Source: Crossaster papposus
Lineage: Eukaryota; Echinodermata; Asteroidea; Velatida; Solasteridae
DNA length: 64,000 bases
Direction: 5' to 3'
Assembly (NCBI GenBank): GCA_037893245.1
Contig: JBAIAA010000746.1
Location: 620,001-684,000, forward strand
Below, in pieces: positions 15,014 to 51,091 of the stretch. The position numbers and the translations under genes were made by a program. Position 1 is the first letter of the stretch. Each line of letters starts with the position of its first letter. The notes below the pieces were generated by a model that saw only the letters and a program-made list of their open reading frames with translations, was not told the DNA's origin and ran no database searches.

Positions 15014-15639
15014 TCACACCTGGTGATACATCTTGACTGAGTAGTGGTCAGCCACTGCCAGCTGCCCATCTGATGTGAATGTGATTCCATTGGGATAGAG
15101 CAGACCCTGTGCAATGCACTTGAGAAATCCACCTTGAGAGTCATAGTGGTGGATATGACCTGTGTCATCACCATTAATATTAAGCATTGCAACATAGATA
15201 CCTGAGCAATCAGTGTACACACCGGTGCAGTACTCTACTGGTTGACCATTGATGGTGGGTTTGATGGTGCGTCGTGTAGTACCATTGCCATCAGCAACAT
15301 TTACTGTCTGTGACCATGAACTAATGACAATTCTATCAATGCTGTCTACAGCCAGAAAGCAAGGTTTAACCTTGACTGGTATGGTACGTAGGAGCTCACC
15401 ATCAGTGGGGCTGTGTTCAGTCAACACCAGCCTCTTGACATCACCTACTACGATGGTACCATCATTCTTGACAGCTACACTCCGGAGGTCAACTGCGGTC
15501 TTACCGACCTCACTCAGTGGCACCGTTAGGAACTCGTAGGCCAACGTGTTGTTGCTGTTGAACACCTTTACATGGGATGCGCCTACCTCGACAACCACCA
15601 AACGATTGTTGGTGCGTGTAGCTGCGATGCCGCATGGAC
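15014..15639 (-). CDS. Full TRIM 2, exon 2: NHL beta-propeller
   Basis: This exon completes the gene whose exon 1 is at 16614-17910. The 3' splice site TCCTACAG lies just before 15639, and the first two bases complete a Cys codon begun by the last base of exon 1 (phase 1). The protein shows repeated propeller strands such as GIAATRTNNRLVVV, GVYTDCSGIYVAM and NGITFTSDGQLAVADH, ending SVKMYHQV. NHL propellers of TRIM proteins bind RNA or protein targets; the target here is unknown. The minus-strand ATG at 15652 is intronic and not a start. The joined protein has 640 residues. Confidence 0.88.
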
Positions 15640-16613
15640 CTGTAGGAGTCATGATGTCAAAACAAACGAACGTATGCAGTTATTGCACAATCCTTTCAAC
15701 ACAGACATTCTTGAAAGAGTGAAAACTGCAATATTAAAAGAAACGTCTGTCAAAGAATACATTGTCAAGGTTTGGTATACACGCTTGAAAAATCACCGCA
15801 TATTATATTTTATTTTGCATGATCTTGTTATATATGTTTTTATGCCCGAGATTGTGGGGCCTAATATGCTTCACTGTAATTTATTTTACTGTGTGAATAA
15901 TGGGCGAGATAAAAAGAAAAAAGAAAAAGGTCTTCCATGCTAACGAGTGATAAACATACACTGAAAACTGTGTTTAGCGAGTAAACAATTTTCTAAACAC
16001 TTTCTTGCTCTCAGTTTGTAAACGTGTTTACATACTGAACATGTTTAGCACGAGGATGGATAGTGTTTAGTCATTGAACATTGATGTCTAGGAATTGGAC
16101 ATGGGTGTTTAGCTGCTAAACATGTTTACTAACCATGTTAACTATAAGCAAAAAAGTCTGTTTACTCGGTAAACACGGCTTTTGGAGTGTAAACCCCTGT
16201 ATACCGATGTTTACGCAAAAATATTTCTTTCAACAAATTCACAGCATTTCTGGGGTTTTTCTTTGTAACTATCAGATGGTGTTTTTTTTTTTAGACTTCC
16301 CATCTATTGCAAAGAGCTTCAGAAATAAAGTAAATCAAATTACTGAGGTCAAATTTCTAATTTGGGTCTGTCCACCTTTATTTTGAAATTTGGTTTTTAT
16401 TGAATATACATTGCGGTTGAAAAACATTCCCACACCGTGAATAATATTCAATAGATCATTATTTTGCTTGAACTTTACAGTTTCAATGGAGTTTTATTTA
16501 CTTTTGTTTAACCTTATTTGGTTAAAAATTTAAATACAGATAATATTAGTGAAGAGCAAGGCAAATTGTTTGAGTGCATATATTTTCGCAGATGGCAGGT
16601 AATTTCAACTTAC
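15640..16613 (-). other. Intron of full TRIM 2, with CACTG-type MITE
   Basis: The intron starts GTAAGT and ends CAG on the minus strand. It contains a GTTTA/TAAAC word array at about 15959-16215 starting CACTGAAAACTG. The corresponding introns begin theirs with CACTGCAAAAA at about 36634 and 51352. The CACTG start and word array suggest a CACTA-like MITE, but I cannot find a matching right end. Confidence 0.55.
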
Positions 16614-17910
16614 ATCCTTGCATCGGGATCGTGCTTATCTGGTTGCCATCGATGCTGCAGATCACAACTCGTTCGTTGGCATGGTCAGTCACTGCAATCT
16701 CATCAGGGTGACGAGCAGCAATGCCCAAAGCCCCATCAAACTCTCCTGGACCGCTTCCCTGTCTACCAAACTCACCACACAGCTCCCACTTGCCTTCCAT
16801 CACTACCACCTCACCCAGACTGATGCCACCAACCCCCTCACTCTGCTTGAACTTCAGAAATGCCAGCCTGTCATCAACTCTAGGAATAGCCTGACTAGCC
16901 AACAGTTTCAAGTCTTTGCTGATTGTAGGATAGAGTGACAGGAAGTCACTATCCGATGCAGTCCTTGTCACCTCTCTAGCCGTATCTAGTGAAAACTTGA
17001 ACCTCTCCACAGCCAAACTCGCGGTTTTCTCACATTCTTCCAACTTCTGCTCACGATCCGTTTGGATGTGTTTGATGTCGTCAAGTATGCAATTTTCTTG
17101 GGCCGTGATCTCTGCTCTTATCTTAGCTGCTTTGTCTCGCACTTCTGTCTTGACCTTCTGAATTGTGAGATTTAAATCTTTTTTCAGTCTTAAGACTTTT
17201 CCCCGTGATTCCTGGATTGCCTTTATTGAGTTTTCAAGTGGAGAAAACAGAACAGCTAATGATTGCTTGTACGCCGATAAAGCCAGATTTCTGTCAATGT
17301 ACGCGTGTTCTGGCTTACAGTGGTCAACGACGGTACAATCTCGACAGATCAACACTTCACATGTCGTACAAAAGAACCGTGCTGCTTCGCCCTCGTGGAT
17401 CAGACATTTTGAATGTTTTGAATGTTTCTTTGTCAGTGTAACCTTCCCCTCACAAATGTCCTTCAGTGGAGTCACCTTGTGGTTTGAAGAGTTAGCAAAT
17501 CGAAGATGCATTTTGCTACAGGCTGAGCACATATTCTGGTCGCAGTCCAGACATCGATGAGTTGCCTCGTTTCCCCCCTCACAAATATCACAGGAAAGAC
17601 CAGCATCACCCAAGCCCACCACCTTCTCCTGAAGTTCAATCTCATCAACCAGACCGATTAGATGAAAGTTGGTTTTCAGACCCTGCACCCCCGCCTCTGG
17701 AAGTTTCGTCTCCTGTCGACACACGGGGCAAGGAATCTCTGTACAGCCCTGGTGCTTCGAGCTGCAGTATTTCAGCAGACATTGTTCGCAGAAGTTGTGC
17801 AGGCATTCTAGTATCTTAGGCCGTTTGTATCTCTCCTGGCAAATGCAGCACTCCAGATGATGTCTGCTGATCAGCGCTAGAGCTGAACTTACTGCAGGTC
17901 CAGTCGCCAT
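16614..17910 (-). CDS. Full TRIM 2, exon 1: RING, B-boxes, coiled coil, start of NHL
   Basis: The exon encodes 432 codons plus one base and begins at an ATG in the context ACAAAACAAAATGGCG, preceded by a likely 3' splice site. The RING is near residues 20-63 (C3HC4, with CCIC and CPVC ends) and should give E3 ubiquitin ligase activity. B-box 1 (CDIC to NHKV) and B-box 2 (CLIHEGEA to CKPEH) follow. A long helix rich in Lys, Glu and Gln spans roughly residues 210-370, then WELCGEFGRQGSGPGEF opens the first NHL blade. The donor GTAAGT directly follows 16614. Open reading beyond the donor to 16546 is intronic. Architecture is that of TRIM2/3/32/71-like proteins, but orthology is not implied. Confidence 0.9.
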
Positions 17911-18138
17911 TTTGTTTTGTCTGAAAAAAAGAAGAATGTGTTCATGTATTTAATAATAGGGATCAACAGTCAGAGCTCTAGATGTACGTGGATTTGAAAG
18001 AAGGGCAAAATCACACCCTTACCAATCACTTTCATTTTATCTGCGATTGGTTTTTACATTGCTATTTGCCAATCCAATCTGTTAATGAGAAGGCTGATAA
18101 TTTTAGAGGTAACCTAATTACATCCTTGACACCGACAG
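17911..18138. promoter_or_regulatory. 5' side of full TRIM 2
   Basis: A pyrimidine-rich tract ending CAG lies about 10 bases before the ATG on the minus strand, the probable 3' end of a 5' untranslated intron. No coding sequence. Confidence 0.5.
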
Positions 18139-18927
18139 TAGGTATGTGAAATAGCGGCTCAAAGAGGGCACCCTATTTCGTCCCTTTCAGCGCGCGCGGG
18201 CTCTGAATCAGTCTGGCAACGATGCCTTCAGATCATCGCGTATTGTTAGAGTATGTTAGGGGTGTGTGAAACTACATGTAGACTTGCATCGATAAACTAA
18301 CGATGTATTGCTGTGTAAGCCAATGGTACGTTGATTCTGTGCGACGTTTGGAACTTTGGAAAACCATAATCTGAAAAATGTGCTCGTGATTTTCATCGAT
18401 ATTTCACTCGAAGGTAGGATAGCTTAAGAATAAAAGTCTATATTTATACAATCACAAAAATGTTGTGTGCTCCGCAAAAAAAAAATGGTAGCCGCGACCA
18501 TGCCGCGACCGTGCGAGTGAAAATTGCCAGAAGGCCATTTTTAGTGGAATGTCGCCCTGTTCTTGTAATTAAAATAATTAATTAGTGGTCATAATTATTT
18601 TATTTTATTATAAGAACTGCAGGTCCAAATGTGTTTTTGCTGCTTAATCATCACAAGAAATTTCAACTGAATACTCCAAGTAATAAAAAAGTTATGAAAT
18701 GATTACACACAAAAAAGTAAAAACCTCAGTTTGGGTCACAATCTTTTCTTATAATATACGCGACATTTAGAAAGGCATATTTAATTAGTAAAAACAATCA
18801 TAACTTCATTAATACTCATCTGACTGAGCTGATTTATGCATCATTTTATTGCATTTTACAAGCTCTTTCAAAAGAATACTACTTTATTTCCATTGCTCAA
18901 ATTAAAAAATTTCATTTCACATACCTA
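18139..18927. mobile_element. 789-bp element with TAGGTATGTGAAAT ends
   Basis: Perfect 14-base inverted ends are flanked by CCGACAG at 18132-18138 and 18928-18934, a 7-bp (or 8-bp with the preceding A) target duplication. The paralogous sequence near 53818-53835 lacks the insert. No transposase is visible. The duplication length would suit hAT, P or Dada-like superfamilies, which I cannot separate. Confidence 0.85.
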
Positions 18928-20040
18928 CCGACAGCCATGCAAATTGTTACCAAAATATTCAGTAAACTGAATTCCATACATAATATTCAGGGAATTTAAG
19001 ATGTGGTTCGAGGTCATGTATCATGCATCTTTGACCATTGATTTTCTCCGCTGGTGTTCTAGTCCATAGCAGGCATCAATGGGAAGACAGTCTAGATATA
19101 AAATCATCGTTTGGCGAAATTATTTGAGCACAATCGATGTACTGTTACGCAGCAGTACCGACAAGCTACATCATCACACAAGTCAATGTGCAGATATGCA
19201 ATAAACCATGGAATAATAATCAGAAATATACGCTTGATTCGGGTTGGTTCTAGCGTGATTATTTTTCATGTACGAAGCACTTTTTTCACCCGATCCGGAA
19301 TTGGTTGAACCGATCCGCAACTAGGAAACTTTGGTGTCGGTATATTTGACGTCGTATTTTCAAATTAAAAAGAGCATAAATATCGAAACAAACACTGTAG
19401 TTTCTCCATTACTTAAGGTAAACTACTAAACCTATTTCATTCGAATTTCGAGGATTAGACTTGCTGAAAACAGCCTGAATTGTTTTTGCGATCCGGAACT
19501 AGGAAAACGTCTGTACATCATCCTGCATTCACAGCGATTATGAAAAAAACAGCGTCAAGCTGCAACATTCTTTGCCATTTTTCAATTGATCGATATGTTT
19601 ACTCACATTTTTGTCAGTTTTCAGTTTGGATGCTAGTTAAAATAAGCAAACCTTTCACTCGGTTATTTTTCTCTATTGCGGTAATTAACTCGGAAGTACA
19701 ACAAGTACAACTAAAGTCGACATATAGAATGCAACATGAATAGCGCCCCCAAGCAAGATATACGACACGCCCAGCGTTCTAACTATGATCGTTTCCCAAA
19801 CCCTAGCTCTAACTTAGGATCATATCGGGCTTCGTCGCGTCCCAGCACCATTGACGAATTACTGCATGACGAAGCCAGATCAGAGACGAAGCTGGGGCTT
19901 GGACAACGGCTCACAGATACCGGATCCAATGATCACTGTAGGAGATGGGTAGGAGAGGGGATTGGGGACTGGTGGATGGGGAGGGGACGGGGAGAGGATA
20001 GAAGTGGGATGGATGGAATGGGCTGTGGGATGGATGGGAC
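18928..20040. other. Upstream block of full TRIM 2
   Basis: Homologous to about 53830-54990. It includes the conserved block near 19730-19815 and a G-rich GGATG/GGGGA tract at 19935-20040. I see no gene. Confidence 0.6.
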
Positions 20041-20300
20041 TATCTTAAGAAATATCTTACTCATTTAAAAGTAAATAATGATTCTAGGAATCCAGCAAAA
20101 TGATTGCGCTAGATATCCTGTAATTCTTCTGAAAAATATAATTTTATAAAGAAAAATTCGGGATCGCCAGACGGCGATCGCGAAAAAGCAAAAATAACAT
20201 AAGAATAACTGCTTGACGCAGGTTAAAAACAAACGCTGTTGTTCGTGCTTTTCTCGGCATCAATGACTGCAAAACTTCAGACAGGTCAGTTAAACGGTAT
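20041..20300. repeat. Repeat with GCGATCGCC dyad, inverted relative to 30733-31170
   Basis: The stretch includes a dyad GATCGCC-AGAC-GGCGATC and words shared, in opposite orientation, with the sequence around 30870-31170 (for example TTTTCTCGGCATC against GATGCCGAGAAAA). It is probably a dispersed MITE; its ends are not defined. Confidence 0.55.
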
Positions 20301-20587
20301 TTAACGTAAATGTACAAGGCTAAAGTTTAATAATGCCCCCATAGTTAATAATGCCACAAATCGTACAGATTCGCCTTGGATGCCCCATGTGAACCACAAT
20401 TTGGGAGGGGGGGGGGGGGGGGGGGGGGTAAAGATGGGGGGGGGGGGGGGAATGCGTACTAAAACAAAAACAAAATTACCAAAATTGAGGTCCACGTTTT
20501 TCCGGGGTAAATAATGTTATTTTGATGTAGAGATAGCGGGACTGGCACAAGGCACGTCACGGTCAACGTCAACGTTTCTAAAACCTT
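20301..20587. repeat. Spacer with long G homopolymer tracts
   Basis: Two runs of G lie at about 20401-20450 with a short AAAGAT spacer. The paralogous position at 55271-55574 carries a different GC-rich array (the 16-mer). The G tracts could form quadruplexes. No gene. Confidence 0.7.
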
Positions 20588-20858
20588 ATTGTTTGTTTGT
20601 TTGTTTGTTTGTTTGTTTGGTTTATTTTCATCCGTACATTAAACTAACGACATAACAACAATTATAATATGTTAACAAATAATGTACAAATGGGGGTAAC
20701 ATCCAGAGGATGTATGACCCTCCTGTAGTGGAGTAGTACCCAGACTGCTATTGGTTCATTGTATTAACTTTGAAAAATAATAATACAAGATAATATAATT
20801 TCCCTTGGTCAGCAATGAATAAGAAAATAAAGGTGTTTTTTAAAAGATAAATGAGATA

Positions 20859-21167
20859 TTAGTGTCCTGCTGCATTAGAACATGAATGACATGATAAATT
20901 AGTGCAAAGAAAACTGTTATACTTGTCCAGATAAAACTCTTTAAGATGGCTAAGGAAAAGTTTCCTAGATACACTGTTCAATTTATTTCTCAGGCTGTCA
21001 GGAAGGGAGTTAACCATTTTATGTAGAAGTTTACGATAATTGGAAGAGACAACATCCACTCTACAAATATCAGTAATACGAATAAGATTATCTTGTCTTG
21101 TAGTGAATGGGTGAAAATCCCGATTTAAAGGAAAAAACGAAGGAGAACTTAAATTATCCGGGAGCAA
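20859..21167 (-). pseudogene. LINE copy 2 C-terminal fragment
   Basis: About 100 codons with the TTRQDNLIRI and YRKLLHKMVNSLP segments typical of the tail after the thumb of CR1/Jockey-like RTs. It follows the palm fragment in the right order on the minus strand. The function of this tail is not known to me. Confidence 0.6.
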
Positions 21168-21682: not shown

Positions 21683-21907
21683 CTAATCTTGCAGTACTCT
21701 CAATTCATCATTCACAGTATTAGCCAGTACCTGCAAATTCTGTCCTGAGGCAACAAGTGTTGTATCATCAGCAAAAAGAACCGGTTTTAACAAGGGGCAA
21801 CACATATCATTAACGTAAATCAAAAACAATAATGGCCCAAGAGTTGACCTCTGGGGTATTCCACAAGTAATATTACAAATATTAGATTTGACATCATCTA
21901 GAATCAC
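21683..21907 (-). pseudogene. LINE copy 2 reverse transcriptase, palm fragment
   Basis: It contains GIPQRSTLGPLLFLIYVNDM and the FADDTTL catalytic box. A stop replaces the Trp codon after VLQD. Confidence 0.78.
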
Positions 21908-22249
21908 ATACTGCTTACGATCATTTAAATAACCTGTAAACCAGTCAAGTGCAATTATACGAATTCCGTAATAATAAATTTTTCGTAATAGAATGTGAGG
22001 ATTGACAGTATCAAAAGCTTTTTTAATATCTAAAAAAACAGCAAAAGAAATATCGGACGGTACTTTGTTAACAGAGTCAGACAGATTATTGTAAAAATCT
22101 AAAACGGCATGAACAGTGGATCTACCTGTACGAAATCCGTAATGTTTATGGCATCGATAATTTTTTTTCGACTGTGCATAAGTTTTTCTAGAACTTTGGA
22201 GCAGGTATTAATTAGTGAGATAGGTCGGTAATTGCCTGGATCCTGGGTA

Positions 22250-22627
22250 TTACCTTTTTTCAAAAACAGGAACAACTTTAGCTAATTTGTACAAGTTAGG
22301 AAAAGTACCTTGTTCAATGGAAGTATTAAAAATATTCGATAATGGAGCAGAAATTATGTCAATAATTTCCTTTAAAAGGGAATTACTAACTTCATCTGAT
22401 CCAGAACTATTTTTGTTTTGAAACTTAGTGACGATTTTTATAATTTTCCCTGGATCAGTAGGGGTAAAAAGAAATGAGTTAGGGGAAGAAGTTGCTAAGG
22501 TTAACCTTGCATTTTTATTAAAATTTGCTAAAATGTAACTTAAGTTAAAGCATTTCAAATAAATATAATTTGGCGGGGGAAGGACTATTAAACACAACAC
22601 AACAAAACGTCTTAGTAACATGTGCAC
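22250..22627 (-). pseudogene. LINE copy 2 reverse transcriptase, N-terminal fragment
   Basis: The frame carries SSGSDEVSNSLLKE and FPNLYKLAKVVPVF blocks, nearly identical to copy 1, then stops after a one-base change in a T run near 22255. The finger motifs continue in another frame down to about 22010. Confidence 0.75.
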
Positions 22628-22745
22628 TTGGATTCCTCAGTAGCGGTTTGACTGTTCTTCTTGGTAGCTCCTAAAAAATAAAAAAATTAAACAAATTAAC
22701 AGAACAAAGAAAAAGCAAATACGGTCTGAAAGACTTATGCAATTT

Positions 22746-24680: not shown

Positions 24681-26375
24681 TTTCGGAAGAATACAGCTCA
24701 AAAAGTTGTATTTATAAAAACAAATATGATTAAGAACAACATCAAGTTATTTACTTTATGAACACTATGATTTTTTCGAACTTTGATTAATATTAGTATC
24801 TACACCGATGAAAATGTTTTAAGTACTGTCCATGTAAAGTAATATTTTATGAACAACGATATTTAACGTAAATGTACATAGATATATTTATGTACGAGGG
24901 ATTGTAAGCCTGCACCCCTACATCAAAGAAATGTACAATGTAAATGACATGTACATGTATACAGTTCGAAATGTAGTGTTCTATTAAATGACTAACTTCC
25001 TCCCAAAAGGTGTCCATCCAACAGAGGTATTACCTTTTGGTGGTTTGTTTTATTGGGAAAATATACGTTATTCTGCCAAAAGAAATAATGCGGCTTTCAG
25101 TGTCATCATGGGTTGTAGAAACACAATGAATTATTAAGCCATCTTCATTTATGATCATTAGCATCAATCTTTATTTCTTTCTTCAAAGCATGCTGGCTCT
25201 CTATGGCAGCTAGTACATACATTTTTTTCTGAATAATTTGGATACTATTAAACACTGTTAAAATAGATAAATAAGGACCATTATGAGTATAATTCTTGTT
25301 TGTTCTCTTAATACAATGTTTATTAAAAAATTTTTTTTTTAATGTGTTGCTATTGCCTAAAACACGATGTTTTGAACGTAGTTTTGTTCACTGCACATCA
25401 ATATATAAATTAGGTCCTATCTTTCAGTGCACTTACTTGCATGTCAAGTTGTTGATTTTTATTATGCTTTGCCTGAAAATACACCTCTGCATAAAGAAAA
25501 AAAAACATTAATTCATTCAGTTTCCACTGGAACCTGCATATTAGATAAATTTTGTTTATCAGCAAAAACTTCCATACTTTAACCCCAACTCCCTAGGGTG
25601 TGTTGATTTTAACAGATTTGGAAGGGTTAGGCTTAGGGGTAAATATTATGCTTTCCACAACAATTCAAAAGCTTTTGTTTTGGCGATATAATACTTTCAA
25701 CACACAGTGTGGTGGTTTTTAATGCAATATTTCTATGCATTTCTATTTCAGATCACTGGATTCCCCTACTGGTTCAACCCGAAATATAACGAAAGGATTA
25801 TTATAAAGAGGACCTACATGTAATAATACTAATTTAAGGGAATAGGATCCCATTAAACACCCTTCCTCTAATATTTTGAGCTGCTTTTAATTTGTTATTT
25901 TTAGTAATACTCTGCACCATGCCTGCAGAATAACTAAGGCCGGACATATACCCCTTTAATGGACCATGACTTCAACATACTATATATAAATTTATAATTC
26001 GACAATTGGTAGTATCATTGGTTTTCTATTTTGAAGATTTTTTCAACGACATCTACCAAGTTTGTTATATTTGGACCAAGACATAGAAAACTACTTAAAT
26101 TTATTTTACATTCCGTTGGCGCAGCCTGTTTGATGATAGGAACCATTCAATTTTGATACGCGTACGGGATACTGATGCGGCTCAAATAAGTAGCCCATTA
26201 GATTCACGTTTTGTGTTGTTATTTCATCAGGTACACTATCGGCAATTTACATCTCATTTTAATCTCTTGTAGGATAGAGTGACAGGAAGTCACTATTTAA
26301 TGCAGTCCTTGTCACCTCTTTAGCTGTATCTAGTGAAAACTGAATCCTCTCCACAGCCAAGCTTGCGGTTTTCTT
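24681..26375. other. Duplicated non-coding block, copy 2, with empty TTAA site
   Basis: Homologous to 3225-3859 plus 5958-6846. The TTAA at 25308-25311 is the unoccupied counterpart of element A. An insert of about 130 bases near 25784-25912 has no clear ends. Confidence 0.7.
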
Positions 26376-27260
26376 TCATTCTTCCAGTTTCTTCTCACGA
26401 TTTGCTTGGATGCGTTTCATGTCGTCAATGTTACGATTTTCCTGAGCCGTTACCTCTGCTCTTATCTTAGCTGCTCTGTCTTGCACTTCTCTCTTGACCT
26501 TCTGAATTGTGAGATTTAAATCTTCTTTCATTCTTAAGACTTTTTTTCGTGATTCCTGGATTGCCTTCATTGAGTTTTCAAGTGGAGACATCAGTTCAGA
26601 CAACGATTGCTTGTAAGTAGATGCTGCCTCGTCTATCTCAATGTACGAGTGTTCTGGTATACGGTGGTTTATGACAGTACAGTCTTGGCAGATGAGTATT
26701 TCACACGTGGTACAAAAGAACCTTACTGCCTCGCCCGCATGGATCGGACATTTCTGATGTTGTTTCTGATGTTTCTTTGTCAGTGTAACCTTCCCCTCAA
26801 GAATGTCCTTCAGTGGAGTCACCTTGTGGTTTGACATTGCTTCAAATCGAAGATGTATTTTGCTACAGGCTGAGCACACATTCTGGTCGCAGTCCAGACA
26901 TCGATGCGTTGCCTTGTTTCCCCTCTCACAAATATCACAGGAAAGACCAGCATCACCCAAGCCCACTACCTTCTCCTGAGGGTCAATCTTCTCAACCAGA
27001 CCGATTAGATGAAAGTTGGTTTTCAGACCCGGCACCCCCGCCTCTGGAAGTTTTGTCTCCTGTTGACACACGGGGCAAGGAATCTCCGTACAGCCCTGGT
27101 GCTTCGTGCTGCAGTATTTCAGCAGACATTGCTCGCAGAAACTATGCAGGCATTCTAGTATCTTTGGCTGTTGATATTGCTCCTGGCAAATGCAGCACTC
27201 AAGTAGATGTCTGCTGATTGTCTCTACTAGAGCTGAACTTACTGCAGGTCCAGTCGCCAT
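26376..27260 (-). pseudogene. Truncated TRIM 3: RING, two B-boxes, partial coiled coil
   Basis: The frame has 294 codons, no frameshift relative to truncated TRIM 1, and the same Cys-to-TGA change at the end of the coiled coil. RING and B-box zinc ligands are intact. Substitutions relative to copy 1 are scattered (for example ERGNKAT for EGGNEAT, CQDC for CRDC). Homology to full TRIMs ends near 26268, the same place as in copy 1. No NHL exon lies below it. It may be translated as a short RING/B-box protein, but nothing in the sequence proves that. Confidence 0.8.
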
Positions 27261-27958
27261 TTCGTTTTGTCTGTGAAAAAGAATTAGAATGTGTTTAGAT
27301 TATTTGATTAATAGAGATCAAAAGCCAGAGCTATAGATATATTTTAGTTTTGTTTATATATTGCTATTTGGCGAAATTATTTGAGCACCATCGGTGTGTT
27401 ACTGTAGATGCAGGGGCGGCCATAATTGCGACAAGTTGTACGGGGCCATGCAGCTTCATCACAAAATATGCAGATATGCAATAAATTAACTAGTACTAGT
27501 ATAAACCACAGCTCCATACCGGGTACTGTCAAAAGTATTAAATATTAATATGTTAAATACTTAGTAAAGTGCCGTCCAGATAATTATGTACAATGACAAT
27601 AAGCACTTGTTATTTTTTCAGCATTTTGGCATTGTACCTGCATTGTCATTGATTACATACATGTATGACATTGAATTGATATGAAAAAAACAGCGTCAGA
27701 CGGCAACATATTATTTTCCATTTCCCTATTGACTGATAACAATATTTTTGCTCACATTTTTTAAGTTTCTGGTTTGGATGGTAACACCGTTAAAGTTTCT
27801 GCCGATGTGAGTGGAAATAAGCAAACCTGGCACTTAGTTTCAGTCACTATTTTCACTAACACGGAAGTCGAAATGGAATGCAACATGAAGAGCGCCCCCA
27901 ATAGACGACACGCCCAGCGTTCTGACTCTGGCCGTTTTTTAAACACCAGTTAGGATCC
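27261..27958. promoter_or_regulatory. Upstream block of truncated TRIM 3
   Basis: A 3' splice-like tract precedes the ATG on the minus strand, and the conserved block near 27870-27955 is present. Otherwise non-coding. Confidence 0.5.
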
Positions 27959-35774: not shown

Positions 35775-36394
35775 TCACACCTGGTGATACATCTTGACTG
35801 AGAGCCAGTCAGCCACTGCCAGCTGCCCATCTGATGTGAATGTGATTCCTTGGGGATAGTAAAGACCTCGTGCAATGCACTTGAGAAAGCCACCTTGAGA
35901 GTCATAGTGGTGGATATGACCCGTGTTATCACCATTATACATCGCCACATAGATACCTGAGCTATCAATGTACACACCGCGGCAGCACTTTACTGGTTGA
36001 TCATTGATGGTGGGTTTGATGGTGCGCCGTGTAGTACCATTGCCATCAGCAACATTTACTGTCTGTGACCGTGAACTAATGACAATTCTATCATTGCTGT
36101 CTACACCCAGATAGTAAGGTTCAACTTTGACTGGTATGGTACGTAGGAGCTCACCATCAGTGGGGCTGTGTTCAGTCAACACCAGCCTCTTGACATCACC
36201 TACTACGATGGTACCATCATTCTTGACAGCTACACTCCAGTGGGCAACTGCAGTCTTACCGTCCTCACTCGGTGGCACCGTTAGGAACTCGTAGGCCAGC
36301 GTGTTGTCGCTGTTAAATACCTTCACATGGAATGCGTTTGGGTCAACAACCACCAAACGATTGTTGGTGCGTGTAGCTGCGATGCCGTATGGAC
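35775..36394 (-). CDS. Full TRIM 4, exon 2: NHL beta-propeller
   Basis: The exon begins after CCTACAG and completes a Cys codon (phase 1), so it joins exon 1 at 37684-38986 to give a 640-residue protein. Propeller strands are aligned with those of the other genes. The loop residues differ: VVVDPNAFHVKVF, AVAHWSVAV, YYLGVDSND, KCCRGVYIDS and VADWLSVKMY. It ends at the same YHQV position. The acidic and aromatic changes lie in the connecting loops rather than in the strands. Confidence 0.88.
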
Positions 36395-37683
36395 CTGTAG
36401 GAGTCATGATGTCAAAACAAACAAACGTATGCAGTTATTGCACAATCCTCTCAACACAGACATTCTTGAAAGAGTGAAAACTGCAGTAGAAAAAATGTCT
36501 GTCACAGAATACATTGTCAAGGTTTGGTATACACGCTTCAGAAAATAACGCATCTTATAATTCACCTGGCATAATTTGTTATGTTTGGTGTTTATCTATT
36601 CTGTGTGGACAATATAAATAAAAAATACACTGCAAAAACTGTGTGTAGCGAGTAAACAATTTTCTAAACACTTTCTTGCTCTCACAGTTTCTAAACGTGT
36701 TTAGCACAAGGATGGATACATGTTTAGCATGAGGATAAATAGTGTTTAGTCATTGAACATTGATGTTTAGGAATTGGACACGAGTGTTTAGCTGCTAAAC
36801 ATGTTAGCAAACAAAATGTGTAAACCTGAGTATACCGATGTTTACGCGAAAATATGTCTTTAATCAAATCCACAGTATTAATGTTTTTTCTTTGTGACTA
36901 TCAGATGTATTTTTCTTGGACTTTCCATCTTTTGCAAAGAGCTTCAGGAATAAAGCAAATCAAATTACAAGGTCAAATGTCCATTTTTAGTTTTTCCACT
37001 TTTGAAATTTTGTTTTCATGAAACATACATTGAGGTTGAAAAAGATTCCTATGCCATGAGTACCAACTTATTCAGTAGATCATTATTTTGTTTCAAATTT
37101 ACAGTTTCAAAGGAGTTTGATTTACTTTTTTTTATCTTAATTAAAAACAAATAATAATACAGAGAATATTAGTGAAGAGCGAAGGCAAATTGTGACCCAC
37201 TCCACAATAATGGGTTTTACAATGTATGTCACAAAACAGTGAAATTGAGTTATATACATGGTTAGAAAGCCCACAGTGTAAGCTTTCATTTGGTATATAA
37301 TAGAGCTCCATAGCCGTTCTAGATATATGACATGTTTACATACTGATTACTTTCTTGGAGTTCAAATTCCACAACTACGAAAACAGGCTTTGAAAAAGCC
37401 GGCTTTATTGTAGTACAACAGAACGATGCACATAAAATTGTATTTTTGTTCTACTTTATTCTTCGAAATCAACATTTCTGTGAATGAAACCTGAAACTGT
37501 AGGTATTAAAGATGTCATTCATGACAAAAAATGTAAATCACATTTTGATGAAATGTTTACCCTCTCAACTTTGAGTAGGCCATTACATGATAATGCACAG
37601 CGCGACTTAATACCCTTTATTGCAGAGCCGGTCACAATTGTTCAAGTGCATAATTTCACAGGTGGCATGTAATTTTAACTTAC
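36395..37683 (-). other. Intron of full TRIM 4
   Basis: GT-AG intron. It carries the CACTGCAAAAA word-array MITE (about 36634-36850) and a second insert at 37192-37635. Confidence 0.6.
37192..37635. mobile_element. 444-bp intronic insert with GTGACC ends
   Basis: Imperfect inverted ends (GTGACCCACTC and GAGCCGGTCAC) are flanked by AATT. The introns of the other two genes read GCAAATTGTTT without interruption. Non-coding. Confidence 0.7.
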
Positions 37684-38986
37684 ATTCTTGCAACGGGATT
37701 GTGCTTTTCTGGTTGCCATCGATGCTGCAGATCACAACTCGTTGGTTGCCATAGTCAGTCACTGCAATCTCATCAGGTTGACAAGCAGCAATGTCCCAAG
37801 CCCCACGGAACTCTCCTGGACCGCTTCTCTGTCTACCAAACTCACCACACAGCTCCCACTTGCCTTCCGTCACTACCACCTCACCCAGATTGATGTCACC
37901 AACACCCTCACTCTGCTTAAACTTCAGAAATGCCAGCCTGTCATCAACTCTAGGAATAGCCTGACCAGCCAACAGTTTCAAGTCTTTGCTGATTGTAGGA
38001 TAGAGTGACAGGAAGTCACTATCTGATGCAGTCCTTGTCACCTCTCTAGCCGTATCTAGTGAAAACTTAAACCTCTCCACAGCCAAGCTCGCAGTTTTCT
38101 CACATTCTTCCAGCTTCTGCTCACCATCCGTTTGGATGTTTTTGATTTTGTCAAGGATGCGATTTTCCTGAGCCGTTACCTCTGCTCGTATCTTGGCTGC
38201 TCTGTCTTGCACTTTTATCTTGACCTTCTGAATTGCGAGATTTAAATCTTCTTTCATTCTTAAGACTTTTTCTCGAGATTCCTTGATTGCCTTTATTGAG
38301 TTTTCAAGTGGAGACATCAGTTCAGCCAACGATTGCTTGTAAGTCGATGCTGCTTCGTCTCTCTCAATGTACGAGTGTTCTGGCATACGGTGGTTTACGA
38401 CAGTACAGTCTCGGCAGATGAGTATTTCACATGTGGTACAAAAGAACCTTGCTGCTTCGCCCGCATGGATCAGACATTTTGGATGTTGTTTCAGATGTTT
38501 CTTTGTAAGTGTAACCTTCCCCTCACGAATGTCCTTCAGTGGAGTTACCTTGTGGTTTGAAGAGGAAGCAAATCGAAGATGTGTTTTGCTACAGGCTGAG
38601 CACACATTCTGGTCGCAGTCCAGACATCGATGAGTTGCCTCGTTTCCCCCCTCACAAATATCACAGGAAAGACCAACATCACCCAAGCCAACTACCTTCT
38701 CCTGAGGTTCAATCTTCTCAACCAGACCGATTGGATGAAAGTTGGTTTTCAGACCCAGTACCCCCGCCTCTGGAAGTTTCGTCTCCTGTTGACACACGGG
38801 GCAAGGAATCTCCGTACAGCCCTGGTGCTTCGTGTTGCAGTATTTCAGCAGACATTGCTCGCAGAAACTATGCAGGCAGTCTAGTATCTTTGGCTGTTGA
38901 TATTGCTCCTGGCAAATGCAGCACTCAAGTAGATGTCTGCTGATCGTCTCTACTAGAGCTGAACTTACTGCAGGTCCAGTCGCCAT
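37684..38986 (-). CDS. Full TRIM 4, exon 1: RING, B-boxes, coiled coil, start of NHL
   Basis: The exon has 434 codons plus one base. RING ligands are Cys22/25, Cys37, His39, Cys42/45 and Cys62/65. B-box 1 spans about Cys108-His145, B-box 2 about Cys171-His204, and the coiled coil about 210-370. The NHL start is KWELCGEFGRQRSGPGEF. The first loops read FRGAWDIAACQ and VTDYGNQR, which differ from the other two genes. The donor GTAAGT directly follows position 37684. The N-terminal half is closest to truncated TRIMs 1 and 3, which points to duplication of a shared ancestor or gene conversion. Confidence 0.9.
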
Positions 38987-40381: not shown

Positions 40382-40382
40382 G

Positions 40383-40850
40383 GATGGGATAGGGGATGGG
40401 ATAGGGGATGGGATAGGGGATGGGATAGGGGATGGGATAGGGGATGGGATAGGGGATGGGATAGGGGATGGGATAGGGGATGGGATAGGGGATGGGATAG
40501 GGGATGGGATAGGGGATGGGATAGGGGATGGGATAGGGGATGGGATAGGGGATGGGATAGGGGATGGGATAGGGGATGGGATAGGGGATGGGATAGGGGA
40601 TGGGATAGGGGATGGGATAGGGGATGGGATAGGGGATGGGATAGGGGATGGGATAGGGGATGGGATAGGGGATGGGATAGGGGATGGGATAGGGGATGGG
40701 ATAGGGGATGGGATAGGGGATGGGATAGGGGATGGGATAGGGGATGGGATAGGGGATGGGATAGGGGATGGGATAGGGGATGGGATAGGGGATGGGATAG
40801 GGGATGGGATAGGGGATGGGATAGGGGATGGGATAGGGGATGGGATAGGG
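40383..40850. repeat. Perfect 12-bp minisatellite, 39 copies
   Basis: GATGGGATAGGG repeats 39 times without an interruption, then passes into about nine GATGG units and an irregular G-rich tract to about 41055. The strand has runs of three and four G at even spacing. The paralogous tracts are short and irregular, so the array expanded recently. Open frames across it (RGWD and GDGI repeats) are spurious. Confidence 0.95.
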
Positions 40851-41055
40851 GATGGGATGGGATGGGATGGGATGGGATGGGATGGGATGGGATGGGGTGT
40901 GGTATATAATGGGATGGGATGGCGGGATGGGGGATATGGAAAGGGATGAGGTGGGGTGGGATGGAATGGGGGATATGGGATGGGATAAGGGATGAAATGG
41001 GATCGGATTGGGGATGGGGATGGACTAGACGGGGTGAGATGGGAGTGGGATAGGT

Positions 41056-44832: not shown

Positions 44833-45392
44833 GCAAGTTTGTTTCATTCTATTTGTAGGCAGAGCTGCAGTGATGAGGGAGGGGACGAAATAAAAAAGTA
44901 TTTAAACCTAGAGCCTATAGTTTAACTGCAAATGCAGTTTGAAGACTTGCCGAGCTAGCTGTGTTGTTTGTCAGGTTGTTCTAAAAGTAATTATAAACCC
45001 CCATGTGACCCCCTTGACTCATATTCAAGCCCCTCAGAGCAATTAAGATATAAATTAATCATAAGATACATTTGCGTCGACGTGATGTAAATCGATATCA
45101 AGCTTTGCCTTTGCTTCACCGATGTGACGTGTTACCTCCAGAGTGAATGATGGAGCACATGTGCAGTTTACTACTAAATATAGTGTGACTGTATGAAATA
45201 CTATTTCGAATGCCTATACATGCTACATGGCCGGCCTCCAGCGGCTAGTATCCCAAATCAAAACCAGTGATGTTATGGCCCACATTTGACACCAGTTCAA
45301 ATGGCTATTTCACTGCTTGTCGTTTGCTGCATTACCCTATGTTGTCTTACCATAATCCAAATTAATGTTGTGTTATGTCCCCCCACCCCCAG

Positions 45393-45522
45393 GGTATTCG
45401 CATGCATCAACTCGGATGGGACCAAGGCGGAGAAAGGAAGGGGGAGAAAAGTCACACCGGTACCACCAAAGCTACTGACACTCTCTAATGCAGTGGCCCA
45501 CTTCCATATGATGAACAGATAA
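45393..45522 (+). CDS. Gene fragment in the CACTA-like element, exon B (C-terminus)
   Basis: The acceptor is a C-rich tract ending CAG just before 45393. One base completes the Arg codon split by the intron (phase 2), and the frame continues VFACINSDGTKAEKGRGRK to a TAA at 45520-45522. Frame, phase and meaning agree with exon A, which makes the exon pair convincing. The tail is basic. Confidence 0.6.
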
Positions 45523-45542
45523 ATATCCTTGACAATTGATTA

Positions 45543-45619
45543 CAATTGTTGACTGCTGTGATGTTGAGTCCCATGGGGTGTTAAAATATCAAGTCCCACA
45601 TCACAGCAGTCAACAATTG
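45543..45619. repeat. 22-bp perfect hairpin with 33-base loop
   Basis: CAATTGTTGACTGCTGTGAT (first 20 bases of the arm, 45543-45564) is exactly complementary to 45598-45619. It lies just after exon B of the gene fragment. The size is like a small-RNA precursor or a tiny inverted repeat. Confidence 0.7.
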
Positions 45620-47190
45620 CTTTGTTATACCTCTGTCTTGAATTCTTAGTAATATTTTCTTCACCGGAAATCTCCAATTTCATCGCAACGATGATAATCT
45701 GTTGCTGCACAGAAAGTTGTACGACGTGAACGTACAGCCAGTCGGGTGAGGGGGACCAGTCATGTGAAAATACAGTATTCAAGACAGAGGTATTATTGCA
45801 GAGATGCCAACCTTTACTATTTTTAAATCATTAAGAAGTACTACTGAACATTTCAGCTGTTCATAGTGCTATTTAAAATTACTGTAATTACTCTTTGCAT
45901 TTACTTTTGTCCTATGTATTTACATTGGAAGTACTATTTGAGGAAGGAATCATTACTCCTTTGTGATCCTGAAGAAATTTGCATCTCTGCAATTGGTGAT
46001 GTATCTGAAGTTTTCAGCTGTGAATTGTTGATAACACCAGGCAAAAAAATACATGTAGTAAAGTACAATATTGGTTGTCAGGGGTCAGAAGTTATTTCCC
46101 CTTCCCCAACCCTCTTTATCTGGCATTTTTACAATGGCTGCAGCCATTTGTTTCTATTATATATATTTTGTTTGTAAAAAATAATACAAAACAAGCCAAA
46201 AGGGGGACCCATATGCCCCACCCCACCCACCCCCGGATCCAACTCTGTACACTTATTGCTTCAAAGGAGAAGCAGCAACTAGTGATTAAATCTACATGTA
46301 TTGTCTACTATAATGTTTGTTGGAGTTTCATATTAAAAATAGAAACAATCATCAGAAAATACTTTGTGTGTGTGTGTTTTTACATTATTTTATGTTTTAA
46401 TGCAGTGTACTTTATACATTTTAGAGCAACGAACTGACACTGGTGCTAATTATAATCATTGGTAACTTGCTGTTTTTGTTCTACAGAAATAGAATTTAAA
46501 ACTTCCACATAAAATCAGGTGTTTTTCTATTTTATTAACACTACTTCAAATTGTACGTATCACAGAATAATACAATAAATTCATTCACAGTAAATTGCCT
46601 GGTGGCAGTAAAAGTACAGTAAAATACTTTTTTTACGGTAATAAACGGGGTCAAACAAATTACCGTGAATATAACGGTCAACTACTGTTGTATCATTTAC
46701 AGTACCTTGGTCGATGGACTGTAAATTGCACAGTATATTACTGTTGACTTAATTACAGTAACCTACTGGAAGTGGACAACAGTAAATTACGTTTACTACA
46801 TCTCACTACTGTAATTTAATTAACAGTAATAAAAAGGATACTGTAATTTAATAAACAGTACGAAAAAAGATACTGTAATTTAATTAACAGTAATAAAAAA
46901 GATACTGTATTTTAATAAACAGTAAGAAAAGAGATACTGTAATTTATTTAACAGTAATAAAAAAGATACTGTATTTTTTTTTTACAGTACATTACTGGTG
47001 GCCATGCTGCCAGTAACTTACTGTAATTTTTACAGTATATTACTGTTTACATAATTACAGTAACTTACGTTTATTTTACACTAAACGATTAACAGTAGTA
47101 ACACGGATACTGTATTTGTTTACAGTATATTACTGGCGGCCGTGCTGCCAGTAAATTACTGTAACATTTTACAGTAAAAATTTTACAGTG

Positions 47191-47783
47191 TATACTTCTT
47201 CATATAAATGTACAAACACGTGTCCTTTTCTATACAGTGCGCGTGCTTTCATATTCAAGGTCAATACAAAATGTAAGATTTTTCAAAAGCCATACCCACA
47301 ACTAATTTTTCATTAAAATGGTGTCAAATGTTTGCAAGGCATTGGTCTACAAGTTTAAACTAGTTTGCACCAAAAACACATGCAACAATAATCGCTAGAA
47401 AATACGTACTGCTTAGAATCAGGGAAACCCCTACAGGGGCGTGGTTTGTTAATTTAAAAGCCACGCCCACAACAAATGTCTAGTTAAAATGGTGTCAAAT
47501 GTTTGCAAGGCATAGGTCTAAAAGTTCAAACTGGTTTGAACCCAAAACACATGCACTAATAATTGCTGGAAAATGCGTACTACATGTACATGTACTTACA
47601 ATCAGGAAACCCCTAAAAAAGGGGTGGGTTGTTAATTTAAAAGAGGTAGTATATAAAACATTATTAATATCATTTAAAAACGTGAAAATTTTCTCAGATT
47701 TAACTCACCGTGAGGAATTAAAAATCAGTAATTGGTGTTCATGTTTGCATGAATATACAGCGGTTTTCACCTTTTTTTCCCCC
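47191..47783. other. 3' block, copy 3, first part
   Basis: Carries the two-copy tandem repeat at 47285-47645 and runs up to the CCCCC at which the LTR is inserted. No gene. Confidence 0.6.
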
Positions 47784-48702
47784 TGTTGCCGACAGAATAT
47801 TATTTTATTCATGCGAGTGCAGTGACCCGCTTTTTTCTCTGTCAACAGAGGGCGCTGTTTGAGTTGCCGCTATTTTCTAACATTTACATGTTACATGTAC
47901 ATGTTGACACGCCACGTTTTGTTACGAAATTGTTCCATTTTAAAGCTCAAAATTTAGCCTTTATCTGCGACAAACCCTTGGTCAGCTCAGCAAAGTGAGT
48001 GATTATTGTTTGTTTAGATTTGTATACTGCATATTAGTAGTAGTTTTAGAGTGATTTGAAGCCATAAATCGTGGATTTTCTGAGTGAAAGTTTGCTTGTA
48101 ATAAGTTGTAAGCCACATATTAACGTTTACATGTATATGCACAGTATGCCATTATCATTGTAACTTGCTCAAGATCTTTACGTGCTCGGGCTGTTGAGTT
48201 ATTGTTAAGAATTTATTAGTCTTGCATAAGTATACATGTAGTTTGATATGATTAGTGTGACATTAGGTACATGTCAGTGCATGTATTTAGAAGTTTTATA
48301 TTTTCCTTTATATTTAGTCTAACCACCAAAGCGACACCAAGTGATACCACCAAAGTGACACAAGATAAGAGACACCATTGCGACACGCCATTGTGAATTC
48401 ACCACTAGAATTCACCACCAGTTTTGACACCATAATTGCCACCTAACTTTACCACAACTTTTCGTCACACTACTCGGTAATCGTCACCCCTACTCTGTCA
48501 ATTAACCTATCGTCAATATCGTCAAGTCATCTGTCAAGTATCACAGTCGGAACTCTGTCATCAAATTCTTTAAGTCACATCATTCAGATTGTTTGTTTAT
48601 ACGTTTCATTAAATAACATTTCTACACGTTCATTGGTGCGTCTCATACGCTGAGTTTTTTATTGATAACACAAAGCGACGATCTGTAGCATTACAGGCTA
48701 CA
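47784..48702. mobile_element. Solo LTR, 919 bp
   Basis: The insert starts TGTTGCC and ends GGCTACA, an imperfect inverted pair of TG...CA type. CCCCC is duplicated on both sides (47779-47783, 48703-48707). The paralogous sites near 13885 and 34720 run uninterrupted through the C-rich tract. There is no internal region, so it is probably the product of recombination between two LTRs. The element family cannot be told from the LTR alone. Confidence 0.72.
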
Positions 48703-48707
48703 CCCCC

Positions 48708-48999
48708 TTTTCCCCCAGAAATAGCCATAGAAAATGACAAAACCCCTAAGAAATTTTGGAAACATATAAATCAGTGAAATGGAACCACCAAGCATTCCAA
48801 AACTGTTTTCAGATCGCTTCTCGGTTTTAGAAAACACCTGAGCCGATTTTTGGACATAAGAACCACTACTAATATTGAAATTAAAATCAGTGGAAGTAGC
48901 CGGTGTCATTAAAATAAGACTCCTATGAAAATCGGACCCTTTTTCCTATTATTGGTTAAACCCTCTCACGTGATAGGTCACGCTCCTAATTATCTCCAC
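48708..48999. other. 3' block, copy 3, second part
   Basis: Resumes homology with about 13895-14141 and 34725-35002. Non-coding. Confidence 0.6.
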
Positions 49000-49003
49000 T
49001 TAA

Positions 49004-49721
49004 AGATGGACTACAACGGAATAATGATAAAGGCTGTGTTGCTGTTTTTTGTTCGAGAATTGTATAATGATTACTAATATATCATTAGTATTCAATAAAT
49101 CTTGTTCCTTCATGCAAAAAACAACAAAAATGATCGGCGTTCTACGACCCAGAAAAACTCAGTTTCAGCAAAAGCCCTTAACTCATGAATAATTCATACT
49201 TTGTGTGTGACGTACTACCCATGAAAACGCATACATATGGTGGCCCTGAAGGGATTCCGCAGATCGCGAATATTGACTTCAAATTTGACGTCAATATTCG
49301 CGACTTTTGGGGAAAGTCGTGAATATCGACGTCAAATTTGACGTCAATATTCGCGACTTTTTTGGAAAGTCGTGAACTAATATTGACGTCAAATTTGACG
49401 TCGATATTCGCGATCTGCGGAGTCCCTTCAGGGCCACCATGTATGCGTTTTCATGGGTAGTACGTCATCACTTTTCGCTGGTTTACAAGTCCGCTGGTAC
49501 TATATCGTGGATTTCATTGTGGTTTTCAGTGGATCTTTGCCGGGAACCAGTACAGGGCGGGAAATTTTAAAATCAAAGAATCGAGGTCTAATTTTGTCGG
49601 TCAAATTGCAACAAAATTATTTAGAGAAAAACATGACCGTAACAATAAAGTGTTACCTGAACACAACATAAACAAGGTCCGATAATAAATTTAATGTGTG
49701 AGTTTTCGTTGTAGTCCATCT
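49004..49721. mobile_element. TTAA-target element B
   Basis: Same AGATGGACTACAACG ends as element A but inverted, flanked by TTAA (49000-49003, 49722-49725). Empty sites are at 14142-14145 and 35003-35006. Its core at 49208-49467 is a palindrome with ends TGACGTACTACCCATGA, then GGTGGCCCTGAAGGGA, enclosing GACGTCAAATTTGACGTC-type repeats. It lacks the large foldback found in element A. Confidence 0.9.
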
Positions 49722-49725
49722 TTAA

Positions 49726-50468
49726 GCATGCGCAATACTACCAATGAGTCCGGATTTCATGGGGTCTGAAATTCACGCTACATCAGTCTACTTAAGGCTA
49801 GTAAAGTCATCAGTGGTGAGGTTTGTTGCCTACACAATTATGTCTTAGAGATTTTAGACAGGGCAGTATATGCTTGCATGCGTGTTTTGTTTTCTTTATT
49901 TATTCGCGATTGGAACATAGCAGAACAAAACAGTGGTCCCAAAACAAAGACGCAGTCTACCAAATTATATTATATAACGCCAAGATGGCTTTAAAAAAAT
50001 ATAGGTCAACTCGACAAGGTTAATCGTTGTATTAGGTAATCACACCGGCAGTTAACTATCAACCTTAAATTCTAAAGAAACTAATAGTAATATTCACACT
50101 CGCACCAAACGTCTCTTACAAATTATACTTCCTTCACGTAAAAAAGAAATATGTAAATGTCAAATAGTGAAAGTTGCCACCAAAATGGCTCTTTTACAAG
50201 AGTGAGTTTAATTCACGCTTTTCCAGTGGTTTGTTTCCCACTCTGTTAGAGCGACTCTGAAATGTTCATTTTTGGATTGGATTCTTCTTTATCAAATATG
50301 CAAATAAGATATTTACAAGCTGGTAATAATCTTACGCCGTATTTCAAGTTATCACTTGTTTTATTGGTATTTGTGACTTTTTATTCGATTGTCGAACGAA
50401 GTTCTACATGTTTGTTTGTGTTTTTTTTCCATCAACGATAAATTGGAATGTTTGCTTGCAATGTCGCA
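49726..50468. other. 3' flank of full TRIM 5
   Basis: Homologous to 14145-15013. Minus-strand AATAAA signals lie near 50358-50385. No gene. Confidence 0.6.
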
Positions 50469-51091
50469 TCACACCTGGTGATACATCTTGACTGAGAAGT
50501 AGTCAGCCACTGCCAGCTGCCCATCCGATGTGAATGTGATTCCTTGGGGATAGTACAAACCCTGTGCAATGCACTTAAGAAATCCACCTTGAGAGTCATA
50601 GTGGTGGATATGACCTGTGTCATCATAATCATTATGCATTGCAACATAGATACCTGACCTATCAGTGTACACACCGGTGCAGTACCGTACTGGTTGACCA
50701 TTGATGGTGGGTTTGATGATGCGCTGTGTAGTACCATTGCCATCAGCAACATTTACTGTCTGTGGCCATGAACTAATGACAATTTTATCATTGATGTCCA
50801 CAGCCAGATAGTGAGGTTTAACCTCGACTGGTATGGTACGTAGGAGCTGACCATCAGTGGGGCTGTGTTCAGTCAACACCAGCCTCTGGACATCACCTAC
50901 TAAGATGGTACCATTATTCTTGACAGCTACACCCTGGAGGTCAACTGCGGTCTTACCGTCCTCACTCGGTGGCACCGTTAGGAACTCGTAGGCCAGCGTG
51001 TTGTCGCTGTTGAACACCTTCACATGGGATGCGCCATCCTGGACGACCACCAAACGATTGTTGGTGCGTGTAGCTGCGATGCCGCGTGGAC
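50469..51091 (-). CDS. Full TRIM 5, exon 2: NHL beta-propeller
   Basis: It begins after CCTACAG with the phase-1 Cys codon and joins exon 1 at 51945-53241 for a protein of 639 residues. Loops read VVVQDGASHVKVF, AVDLQGVAV, HYLAVDIND, RYCTGVYTDR and VADYFSVKMY, a third version of each variable loop. The open frame continues past the splice site to 51221 (with an ATG at 51107) because the intron is open there; those codons are not part of the protein. Confidence 0.88.

Follow-up and report, generated by a model that had tools for sequence, protein, structure and literature searches.

In fish, the multigene TRIM subsets finTRIM, btr and hltr/trim35 carry B30.2 loops that are positively selected, a result tested despite recombination (PMC3137616, excerpted text). 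For the fungal HNWD (het-e) NLRs, four propeller positions per repeat, situated on the interaction surface, were found to be under diversifying selection, and the repeats are exchanged by concerted evolution (PMC4986451, excerpted text). In zebrafish LIN41, the residues that touch RNA form the upper surface of the NHL domain (PMC5908797, excerpted text). Here we analyse a stretch of 64,000 nucleotides from the sea star Crossaster papposus (assembly GCA_037893245.1, contig JBAIAA010000746.1, positions 620,001 to 684,000 of the forward strand; hereafter the window), whose minus strand holds three two-exon genes, complete and open, that encode a RING, two B-boxes and an NHL propeller (copies A, B and C). 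Codon variation among these and related copies indicates that each blade has a small set of hypervariable positions under diversifying selection, always the same ones and located at one end of the propeller (the loop around a PxG motif that leads into the blade, and the one or two residues that follow strand B), that the propeller scaffold is under purifying selection, and that exchange between copies reassorts the variants. It is probable that this selection acts on the substrate-recognition face of the propeller, with the E3 module conserved, and that the genes form a germline repertoire of recognition and effector proteins.

Like the fish B30.2 TRIMs, these genes belong to a large duplicated family with a RING, B-box and coiled-coil (RBCC) region and with C-terminal-domain loops that vary under positive selection; the fish domain is a vertebrate beta-sandwich, whereas here, in an echinoderm, the sites occur once per blade of a six-bladed NHL propeller. 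With HNWD they share a few selected positions per blade and exchange between copies, but in HNWD the repeats are of WD40 type and sit on NACHT proteins whose N-terminal domains vary, RING and B-box are absent, and repeats are exchanged both within and between genes. The NHL domains of DrLIN41/TRIM71, Brat and TRIM2/3 have the same fold, and the RNA surface of LIN41 uses the same positions in each blade. LIN41 differs in having a filamin domain, of which no model was found in the Pfam scan of the three exon-1 proteins (E<=0.1), and the face of the Crossaster copies is not strongly basic; unlike LIN41, Brat and TRIM2/3, which are conserved developmental genes (TRIM2/3 also with a filamin domain), the family described here has hundreds of matches in one genome. 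TRIM32 and Drosophila Thin are likewise RBCC-NHL proteins without filamin, but are generally known as single-copy and muscle-related; the NHL domain of Thin is the best sequence match to that of copy C among solved structures (E 9.9e-21).

Exon 1 encodes the RING, two B-boxes, a presumed coiled coil and NHL blade 1, and exon 2 encodes blades 2-6 only. Open reading frames (ORFs), Pfam matches and splice junctions place the exons on the minus strand at 16614..17910 (exon 1, which also includes the NHL closing strand) and 15014..15639 (exon 2) for copy A, at 37684..38986 and 35775..36394 for copy B, and at 51945..53241 and 50469..51091 for copy C; for exon 2 of copy A, the best Foldseek matches are the NHL domains of TRIM3 and TRIM2. 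The listed exon-2 open frames (15014-15679, 35775-36434 and 50469-51245) are longer than the coding exons, which start inside them, after the acceptor CTCCTACAG, at 15639, 36394 and 51091, the part upstream of the acceptor being intron. The acceptor and the donor AT/GTAAGT (the slash marks the exon end) are common to the three copies, exon 1 of copy A ending GGAT/GTAAGT in phase 1, and the spliced products are open proteins of 640, 640 and 639 residues. All three copies match Pfam zf-C3HC4 (RING; 26.3-29.9 bits, cut-off 21), zf-B_box (42.1-48.6 bits, cut-off 24.1), ANCHR-like_BBOX (32.2-39.3 bits, cut-off 27) and, in exon 2, NHL (32.9-36.7 bits, cut-off 20). The coiled-coil region, at about residues 205-296, matched sub-threshold models only (Cortex-I_coil, 13.8-19.4 bits, cut-off 60). 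Neither B30.2 (PRY/SPRY) nor NACHT or WD40 was found in the Pfam scan of the six exon translations at E<=0.1; NCBIfam gave nothing but matches far under cut-off, and Rfam no match in the window at the gathering threshold. The RING match suggests that the copies may act as ubiquitin ligases.

The exon-2 set comprised 71 distinct copies, the three of the window and 68 others, left from 93 matches after 22 identical repeats were dropped. Removal of 16 of the 221 alignment columns left 205 codons; residue 155, which belongs to the blade 5 register described below, could not be kept, as most copies have a gap there. Since site pairs with all four combinations of variants make one tree unsafe for these copies, tree-free ratios of nonsynonymous to synonymous diversity (piN/piS) and per-blade trees were added; 9 of the 71 copies, near-identical to others (<=1%), were left out of these two tests, while the ratio of nonsynonymous to synonymous rates (dN/dS, or omega) by structural class, the single-tree per-codon test and the pair tests kept all 71. 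A site was called positive when the posterior P(dN>dS) exceeded 0.95. The boundaries of the loop classes came from DSSP on an AlphaFold2 model and were written down after the entropy table had been seen.

In a propeller the loops from strand D to the next strand A (DA) and from B to C (BC) lie on one side, here called top, and the AB and CD turns on the opposite side. Omega was 4.50 in BC loops, 1.81 in DA loops and 1.01 in the top strand halves, compared with 0.87 in AB turns, 0.67 in CD turns and 0.50 in the bottom strand halves; the tree-free piN/piS gave 2.31, 1.35 and 0.85 for the first three classes and 0.68, 0.38 and 0.38 for the others. Over 40 half-samples of copies, piN/piS ranged from 1.51 to 1.94 in top loops and from 0.40 to 0.66 in bottom loops. 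Positive sites numbered 25 of the 205 codons and 23 of them lie on the top side (9 in BC loops, 9 in DA loops and 5 at adjoining strand ends), the other two being one in a bottom strand (residue 124) and one in a CD turn (169); the per-blade trees yielded the same two counts (25 and 23). An omega of 1 or less was rejected with 2dlnL 580 under per-blade trees and 1353 under one tree, the latter figure being inflated because of recombination. Between 35 disjoint nearest pairs, top loops had a dN/dS of 1.49, top strand halves 0.68 and the remaining codons 0.45.

The 14 contacts of LIN41 listed in PMC5908797 (excerpted text), when placed by hand on the chain sequence, all fall on five positions per blade. 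Positions 1-3 of this register are the residues four, three and one before the G of PxG, and positions 4-5 are the two residues that directly follow the conserved D at the end of strand B; LIN41 Cys563, Arg564, Arg581 and Ser582 align with residues 392, 393, 410 and 411 of the Crossaster protein. The register was set from the contacts in the paper after the variation pattern had been seen, hand-counted along printed alignments, and shifted by one residue in blades 2 and 5 for a longer or shorter AB turn, according to the HMMER alignment in blade 2 and by eye in blade 5. At its 22 testable codons in exon 2 piN/piS was 2.86 (codon bootstrap 2.06-4.51), against 0.53 (0.40-0.73) at the other 183, and it holds 18 of the 25 positive sites (18/22 codons versus 7/183, Fisher p=1e-16, one tree); the same 18 register codons were positive with per-blade trees. 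If the register is moved by one residue in either direction, piN drops from 4.10 times the piS of the whole exon to 1.86 times. Synonymous diversity is 0.1245 at register codons versus 0.0834 at the others, and nonsynonymous diversity is 8 times higher.

The same pattern extends into exon 1. Seventeen exon-1 matches were picked by hand and one was removed for a stop, which left 16 usable rows, 14 of them full length; the other two are first pieces of split copies, kept for the piN/piS of domains and excluded from the register test. The set excludes the two truncated window copies and partial matches at other loci. Blade 1 is variable at residues 392-393, 410, 411 and 413, with piN/piS 2.19 at its 5 register codons versus 0.84 at its other 55 (14 copies), and N412 and R414, which stand between or beside the hypervariable residues, are fixed in all 14 full exon-1 copies. 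By domain, piN/piS was 0.23 in the RING, 0.31 and 0.29 in the B-boxes, 0.45 in the coiled coil and linker, and 1.14 in blade 1; the ligase half is thus conserved by selection, the ratios of the RBCC domains being 0.23-0.45. Synonymous diversity is 0.18-0.31 in the RBCC region versus 0.084 in blade 1 and 0.087 in exon 2 (2 to 3.7 times), which suggests that gene conversion has homogenised the propeller to a greater degree, or at a later date, than the RBCC part.

In the initial annotation, made from the window alone, short peptides that differ among the three exon-2 copies had been quoted as clustered loop positions recurring at blade-like spacing, possibly on one face of a propeller, coupled to a constant ubiquitin-ligase module. 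All quoted peptides were located in the three copies. Their clustering was borne out: 42 of the 205 codons differ in amino acid within this trio, 31 of 103 on the top side versus 11 of 102 elsewhere (Fisher p=0.0009), and the proposed recurrence agrees with positive selection at 18 of the 22 per-blade contact positions. Site by site, dN/dS exceeds 1 at loop codons and is below 1 in most remaining codons, and the sites are not scattered over both faces and the core. The single face holds for the 23 DA/BC-side sites but not for every residue that had been quoted: residue 146 (C/S/R), one of the 10 trio sites at which all three copies differ, lies across the propeller in an AB turn and shows no positive selection (P=0.02), and residue 102 (I/N/N) is the same kind of exception (P=0.19). 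Exon 2 comprises blades 2-6 only, so that the pattern has to be extended by blade 1 in exon 1, and the ligase module is constant in the sense of purifying selection, not in being the most similar DNA. Within the trio dN/dS was 0.38 in the RBCC region, 1.12 in blade 1 and 0.94 in all of exon 2, with 12.85 at the 22 contact-register codons (64.2 nonsynonymous versus 1.8 synonymous differences summed over the three pairs) and 0.44 at the other exon-2 codons.

In copy A, the DA loop into blade 1 has its variable residues 392-393 (DG), aligned with LIN41 Cys563/Arg564, at 16732..16737, and the blade 1 BC loop 410-413 (HANE), variable at 410, 411 and 413 and with 410/411 aligned with Arg581/Ser582, is at 16672..16683, all on the minus strand as are the following. 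Blade 2 has variable residue 4, the x of PxG, at 15632..15634 and BC loop 19-21 (EVG; P>0.95 at residue 20 only) at 15581..15589. The DA loops into blades 3, 4, 5 and 6 are at 15482..15490 (residues 52-54, DLR), 15359..15367 (93-95, KPC), 15224..15235 (137-140, EYCT) and 15089..15100 (182-185), and the BC loops of these blades at 15434..15439 (69-70, VK), 15314..15316 (110, W), 15164..15184 (154-160, variable in sequence and length) and 15041..15046 (200-201, HY).

Variants at these positions seem to move among copies. Sites 1-2 bases apart had a mean r2 of 0.09 and sites more than 30 bases apart 0.026-0.036, with 0.017 after permutation, and 82-94% of site pairs showed all four combinations. 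With linkage this close to absent, the variants have been reassorted among copies. A set of 22 variable residues chosen by eye forms 63 distinct strings in the 71 copies, and the median pair of copies differs at 15 of these 22 versus 16 of the other 183.

One explanation in which selection for function has no part is neutral drift in duplicates, the top loops being exposed and unconstrained and the strands held by folding. Propeller loops are indeed exposed, some copies are broken or incomplete, and the top loops of the closest pairs reach a dN/dS of 0.96; but drift alone cannot lift piN/piS above 1, as at the register, the AB and CD turns are also exposed and yet stay at 0.68 and 0.38, and fixed residues (N412 and R414) stand among the hypervariable ones, so that we regard drift as very unlikely. 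A mutational mechanism, whether targeted or CpG-driven hypermutation, seems if anything still more improbable. It would account for the fact that in most variable codons the first two bases change while the third is nearly fixed (NNC at residue 138), and for R/Q/W swaps (CGG, CAG, TGG) resembling CpG decay at some sites such as residues 54 and 124. The modest excess of synonymous diversity at the register is nevertheless set against an eightfold nonsynonymous one, the constant third base varies by site (C, T, G or A) and therefore points to no single sequence target, and the pattern tracks blade position through all six blades and both exons. On these grounds we set aside relaxed constraint as well as hypermutation and CpG decay. 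Residue 124 itself, in strand D and off the face, is R (CGG), Q (CAG) or occasionally W (TGG), and its variation may be due to CpG mutation instead of selection.

If selection is granted, the nature of the ligand is to be weighed. The face could bind RNA, as in LIN41 and Brat, with copies tuned to transcripts of viruses, transposons or the host, whether or not ubiquitination follows. The hypervariable positions are those of the zebrafish LIN41 RNA contacts; however, 8 of the 14 LIN41 contacts listed in PMC5908797 (excerpted text) are Arg or Lys and one is Asp, whereas the net charge over the 22 exon-2 register positions has a median of +1 and ranges from -4 to +7. The register is rich in Tyr, Trp, His and Cys besides Arg and Lys (Tyr 13.8%, Arg 8.2%, Lys 7.7%, His 6.0%, Cys 6.0%, Trp 4.5%; elsewhere 3.2, 3.8, 3.8, 3.3, 1.3 and 0.0%), which is closer to a general protein-binding face, and this make-up would suit varied protein ligands better than one common mode of RNA binding; we therefore consider RNA as the general ligand rather unlikely. 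Diversification for recognition within the species (allorecognition, gametes) or for turnover of host proteins, and not against pathogens, appears less likely again. Large copy number and reassortment fit such systems too, and nothing in the sequence speaks against it; virus-driven diversification of TRIM proteins is the better precedent (PMC3137616, excerpted text).

In the reading that we prefer, a diversified recognition face joined to a conserved E3 module, the variable face would recognise targets, as LIN41 and Brat lead us to expect, each copy would have its own specificity, and the RING end would ubiquitinate the bound target, as in the TRIM family. The driver would most likely be a host-pathogen arms race, by the precedent of the fish B30.2 TRIMs (PMC3137616, excerpted text), and the genes would then amount to a germline-encoded repertoire of proteins that serve in intracellular recognition and as effectors. 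A bolder version, which we put forward tentatively and hold to be somewhat short of an even chance, is that of a combinatorial, antibody-like repertoire on one propeller, with up to about 400 E3-type genes sharing one frame and about thirty mouth residues reassorted among them; an invertebrate without rearranging receptors would in that case hold hundreds of cytosolic binders coupled directly to ubiquitination of their targets, and part of them could read RNA in place of protein, since the positions that vary are those at which LIN41 contacts RNA.

Several points weigh against the preferred reading. The AlphaFold2 model of exon 2, from the three window sequences, shows the strands of five blades with a predicted local distance difference test score (pLDDT) of 74 and a predicted template modelling score (pTM) of 0.71, but it was built from three sequences and covers five of the six blades, and the other four models have pLDDT 48.8-57.8. 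Its top 21 Foldseek matches are all NHL domains (TRIM3, TRIM2, TRIM71/LIN41, Brat, Thin and Mei-P26), at template modelling (TM) scores of only 0.48-0.56, low because the modelled propeller is incomplete, and root mean square deviations of 9.7-11.4 A. All copies come from one genome; the 68 outside the window were drawn from the 150 best matches to copy A (147 without the trio) and leave distant copies unsampled, which, if anything, understates exon-2 diversity. The selection statistics are our own implementation and not those of HyPhy or PAML, and the single-tree likelihoods carry the inflation noted above. Seven of the 25 positive sites fall outside the register, and residues 124 and 169 lie on the opposite side of the propeller. 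The least favourable result is that of the 14 closest of the 35 pairs, in which dN/dS was 0.96 in top loops, 0.58 in top strand halves and 0.55 in the rest, so that the youngest pairs show no dN/dS above 1. The ligand, expression and activity of the copies are inferred, and the immune role is suggested by analogy.

Copy number and integrity bear on the same reading. In the 1.02-Gb assembly (1841 contigs), a 30-base exon-2 tag gave 433 matches with <=3 mismatches and an exon-1 tag 385, the reversed patterns serving as control giving 0; two haplotypes of a single locus may account for some of these matches. Among 1095 candidates found with exon 2 of copy A, the best 150 are 83-100% identical and 148 of them have no internal stop. 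Twenty loci were fetched together with some 4 kb of upstream sequence, and exon 1 is open and full length in 11 of them; the other nine (one with a stop, two split, one partial and five with no match at E 1e-20) count against the reading, and this survey implies either that intact genes fall well short of the number of tag matches or that exon 1 is located at a greater distance. Some share of copies is therefore incomplete. The loci are members of a greatly expanded echinoderm family of RBCC-NHL (TRIM-type) genes. The mitochondrial COX1 of the assembly (contig C1841) fits the echinoderm genetic code: translated with AAA=Asn, ATA=Ile, AGA=Ser and TGA=Trp it shows the residues that are conserved among animals, and the general invertebrate code puts Lys or Met at several of these sites.

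A diversified expansion of B30.2 TRIMs in fish is reportedly what the finTRIM paper describes, and such expansions are documented; here the diversification is on an NHL propeller, where selection strikes the same few positions of each blade. Hundreds of homologous propellers that differ mainly at one face are a natural mutant series for the choice of RNA or protein targets by NHL domains, and they add a candidate intracellular receptor family to echinoderm immunity. In the sea urchin (purpuratus), 140 TRIM genes were annotated and several are up in phagocytes after ultraviolet B; the main text does not contain the term NHL, and the excerpted text describes no diversified face (PMC13043383). 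The main text of a sea cucumber genome paper contains none of the words tripartite, NHL or ubiquitin (PMC13228809). No NHL-TRIM expansion with a diversified propeller face was found in the listed titles and abstract openings of open-licence papers in PubMed Central, which leaves subscription papers mostly outside, and this is no proof that none exists.

As for the genomic setting, 44 among the 100 exon-2 tag matches listed lie on one contig (C96), all on the plus strand between 28,100 and 1,423,334. Closely similar dispersed copies were seen on contigs C59, C343, C877, C123, C399 and C644; those of C59 and C877 have two blocks in common, one of 5141 bases at 99.65% identity and one of 3012 bases at 99.73%. 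For a segment that lies downstream of the gene there were 44 matches at 75-100% identity (best 40 of 1462 candidates scored). The dispersed copies are possibly a mobile or segmentally duplicated unit that contains the gene; no transposase-like ORF was seen by eye in the 9-kb stretch, on which no family search was run.

Besides copies A, B and C, an exon-2 search of the window found no other copy. Two truncated, exon-1-only copies with in-frame stops were identified by their match to exon 1, at 6739..7758 and 26268..27296 on the minus strand; both matches end at the same codon, and just beyond them 6461-6760 and 25990-26289 are 93% identical, so that the truncated unit itself must have been duplicated. 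Reverse transcriptase fragments, presumably of non-long-terminal-repeat type, lie between gene copies at 1839-3098 and 21683-22207 (minus strand), and a 300-base stretch at 2718-3017 is 99% identical to 22256-22555. At the edge of the gene cluster, adjacent ORFs at 55755-60153 (plus strand) have the appearance, judging by motifs, of gag-like, reverse transcriptase/RNase H and tyrosine recombinase proteins, which would make up a DIRS-like retroelement; another ORF, at 324-1214 (plus strand), is likewise recombinase-like. Nearly perfect tandem arrays occupy 40382-40896 (12-base unit, 43.6 copies, 99%) and 55270-55578 (16-base unit, 19.3 copies, 100%), and the long ORFs that overlap them are probably spurious. 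Elsewhere in the assembly, a contig of more than 5 Mb (C8) has COX1-family matches at 5208663-5210009 and 2872001-2873343 with no in-frame stop under the standard code, unlike the mitochondrial COX1 (contig C1841), which has 13 TGA; this contig perhaps comes from a bacterial symbiont or contaminant.

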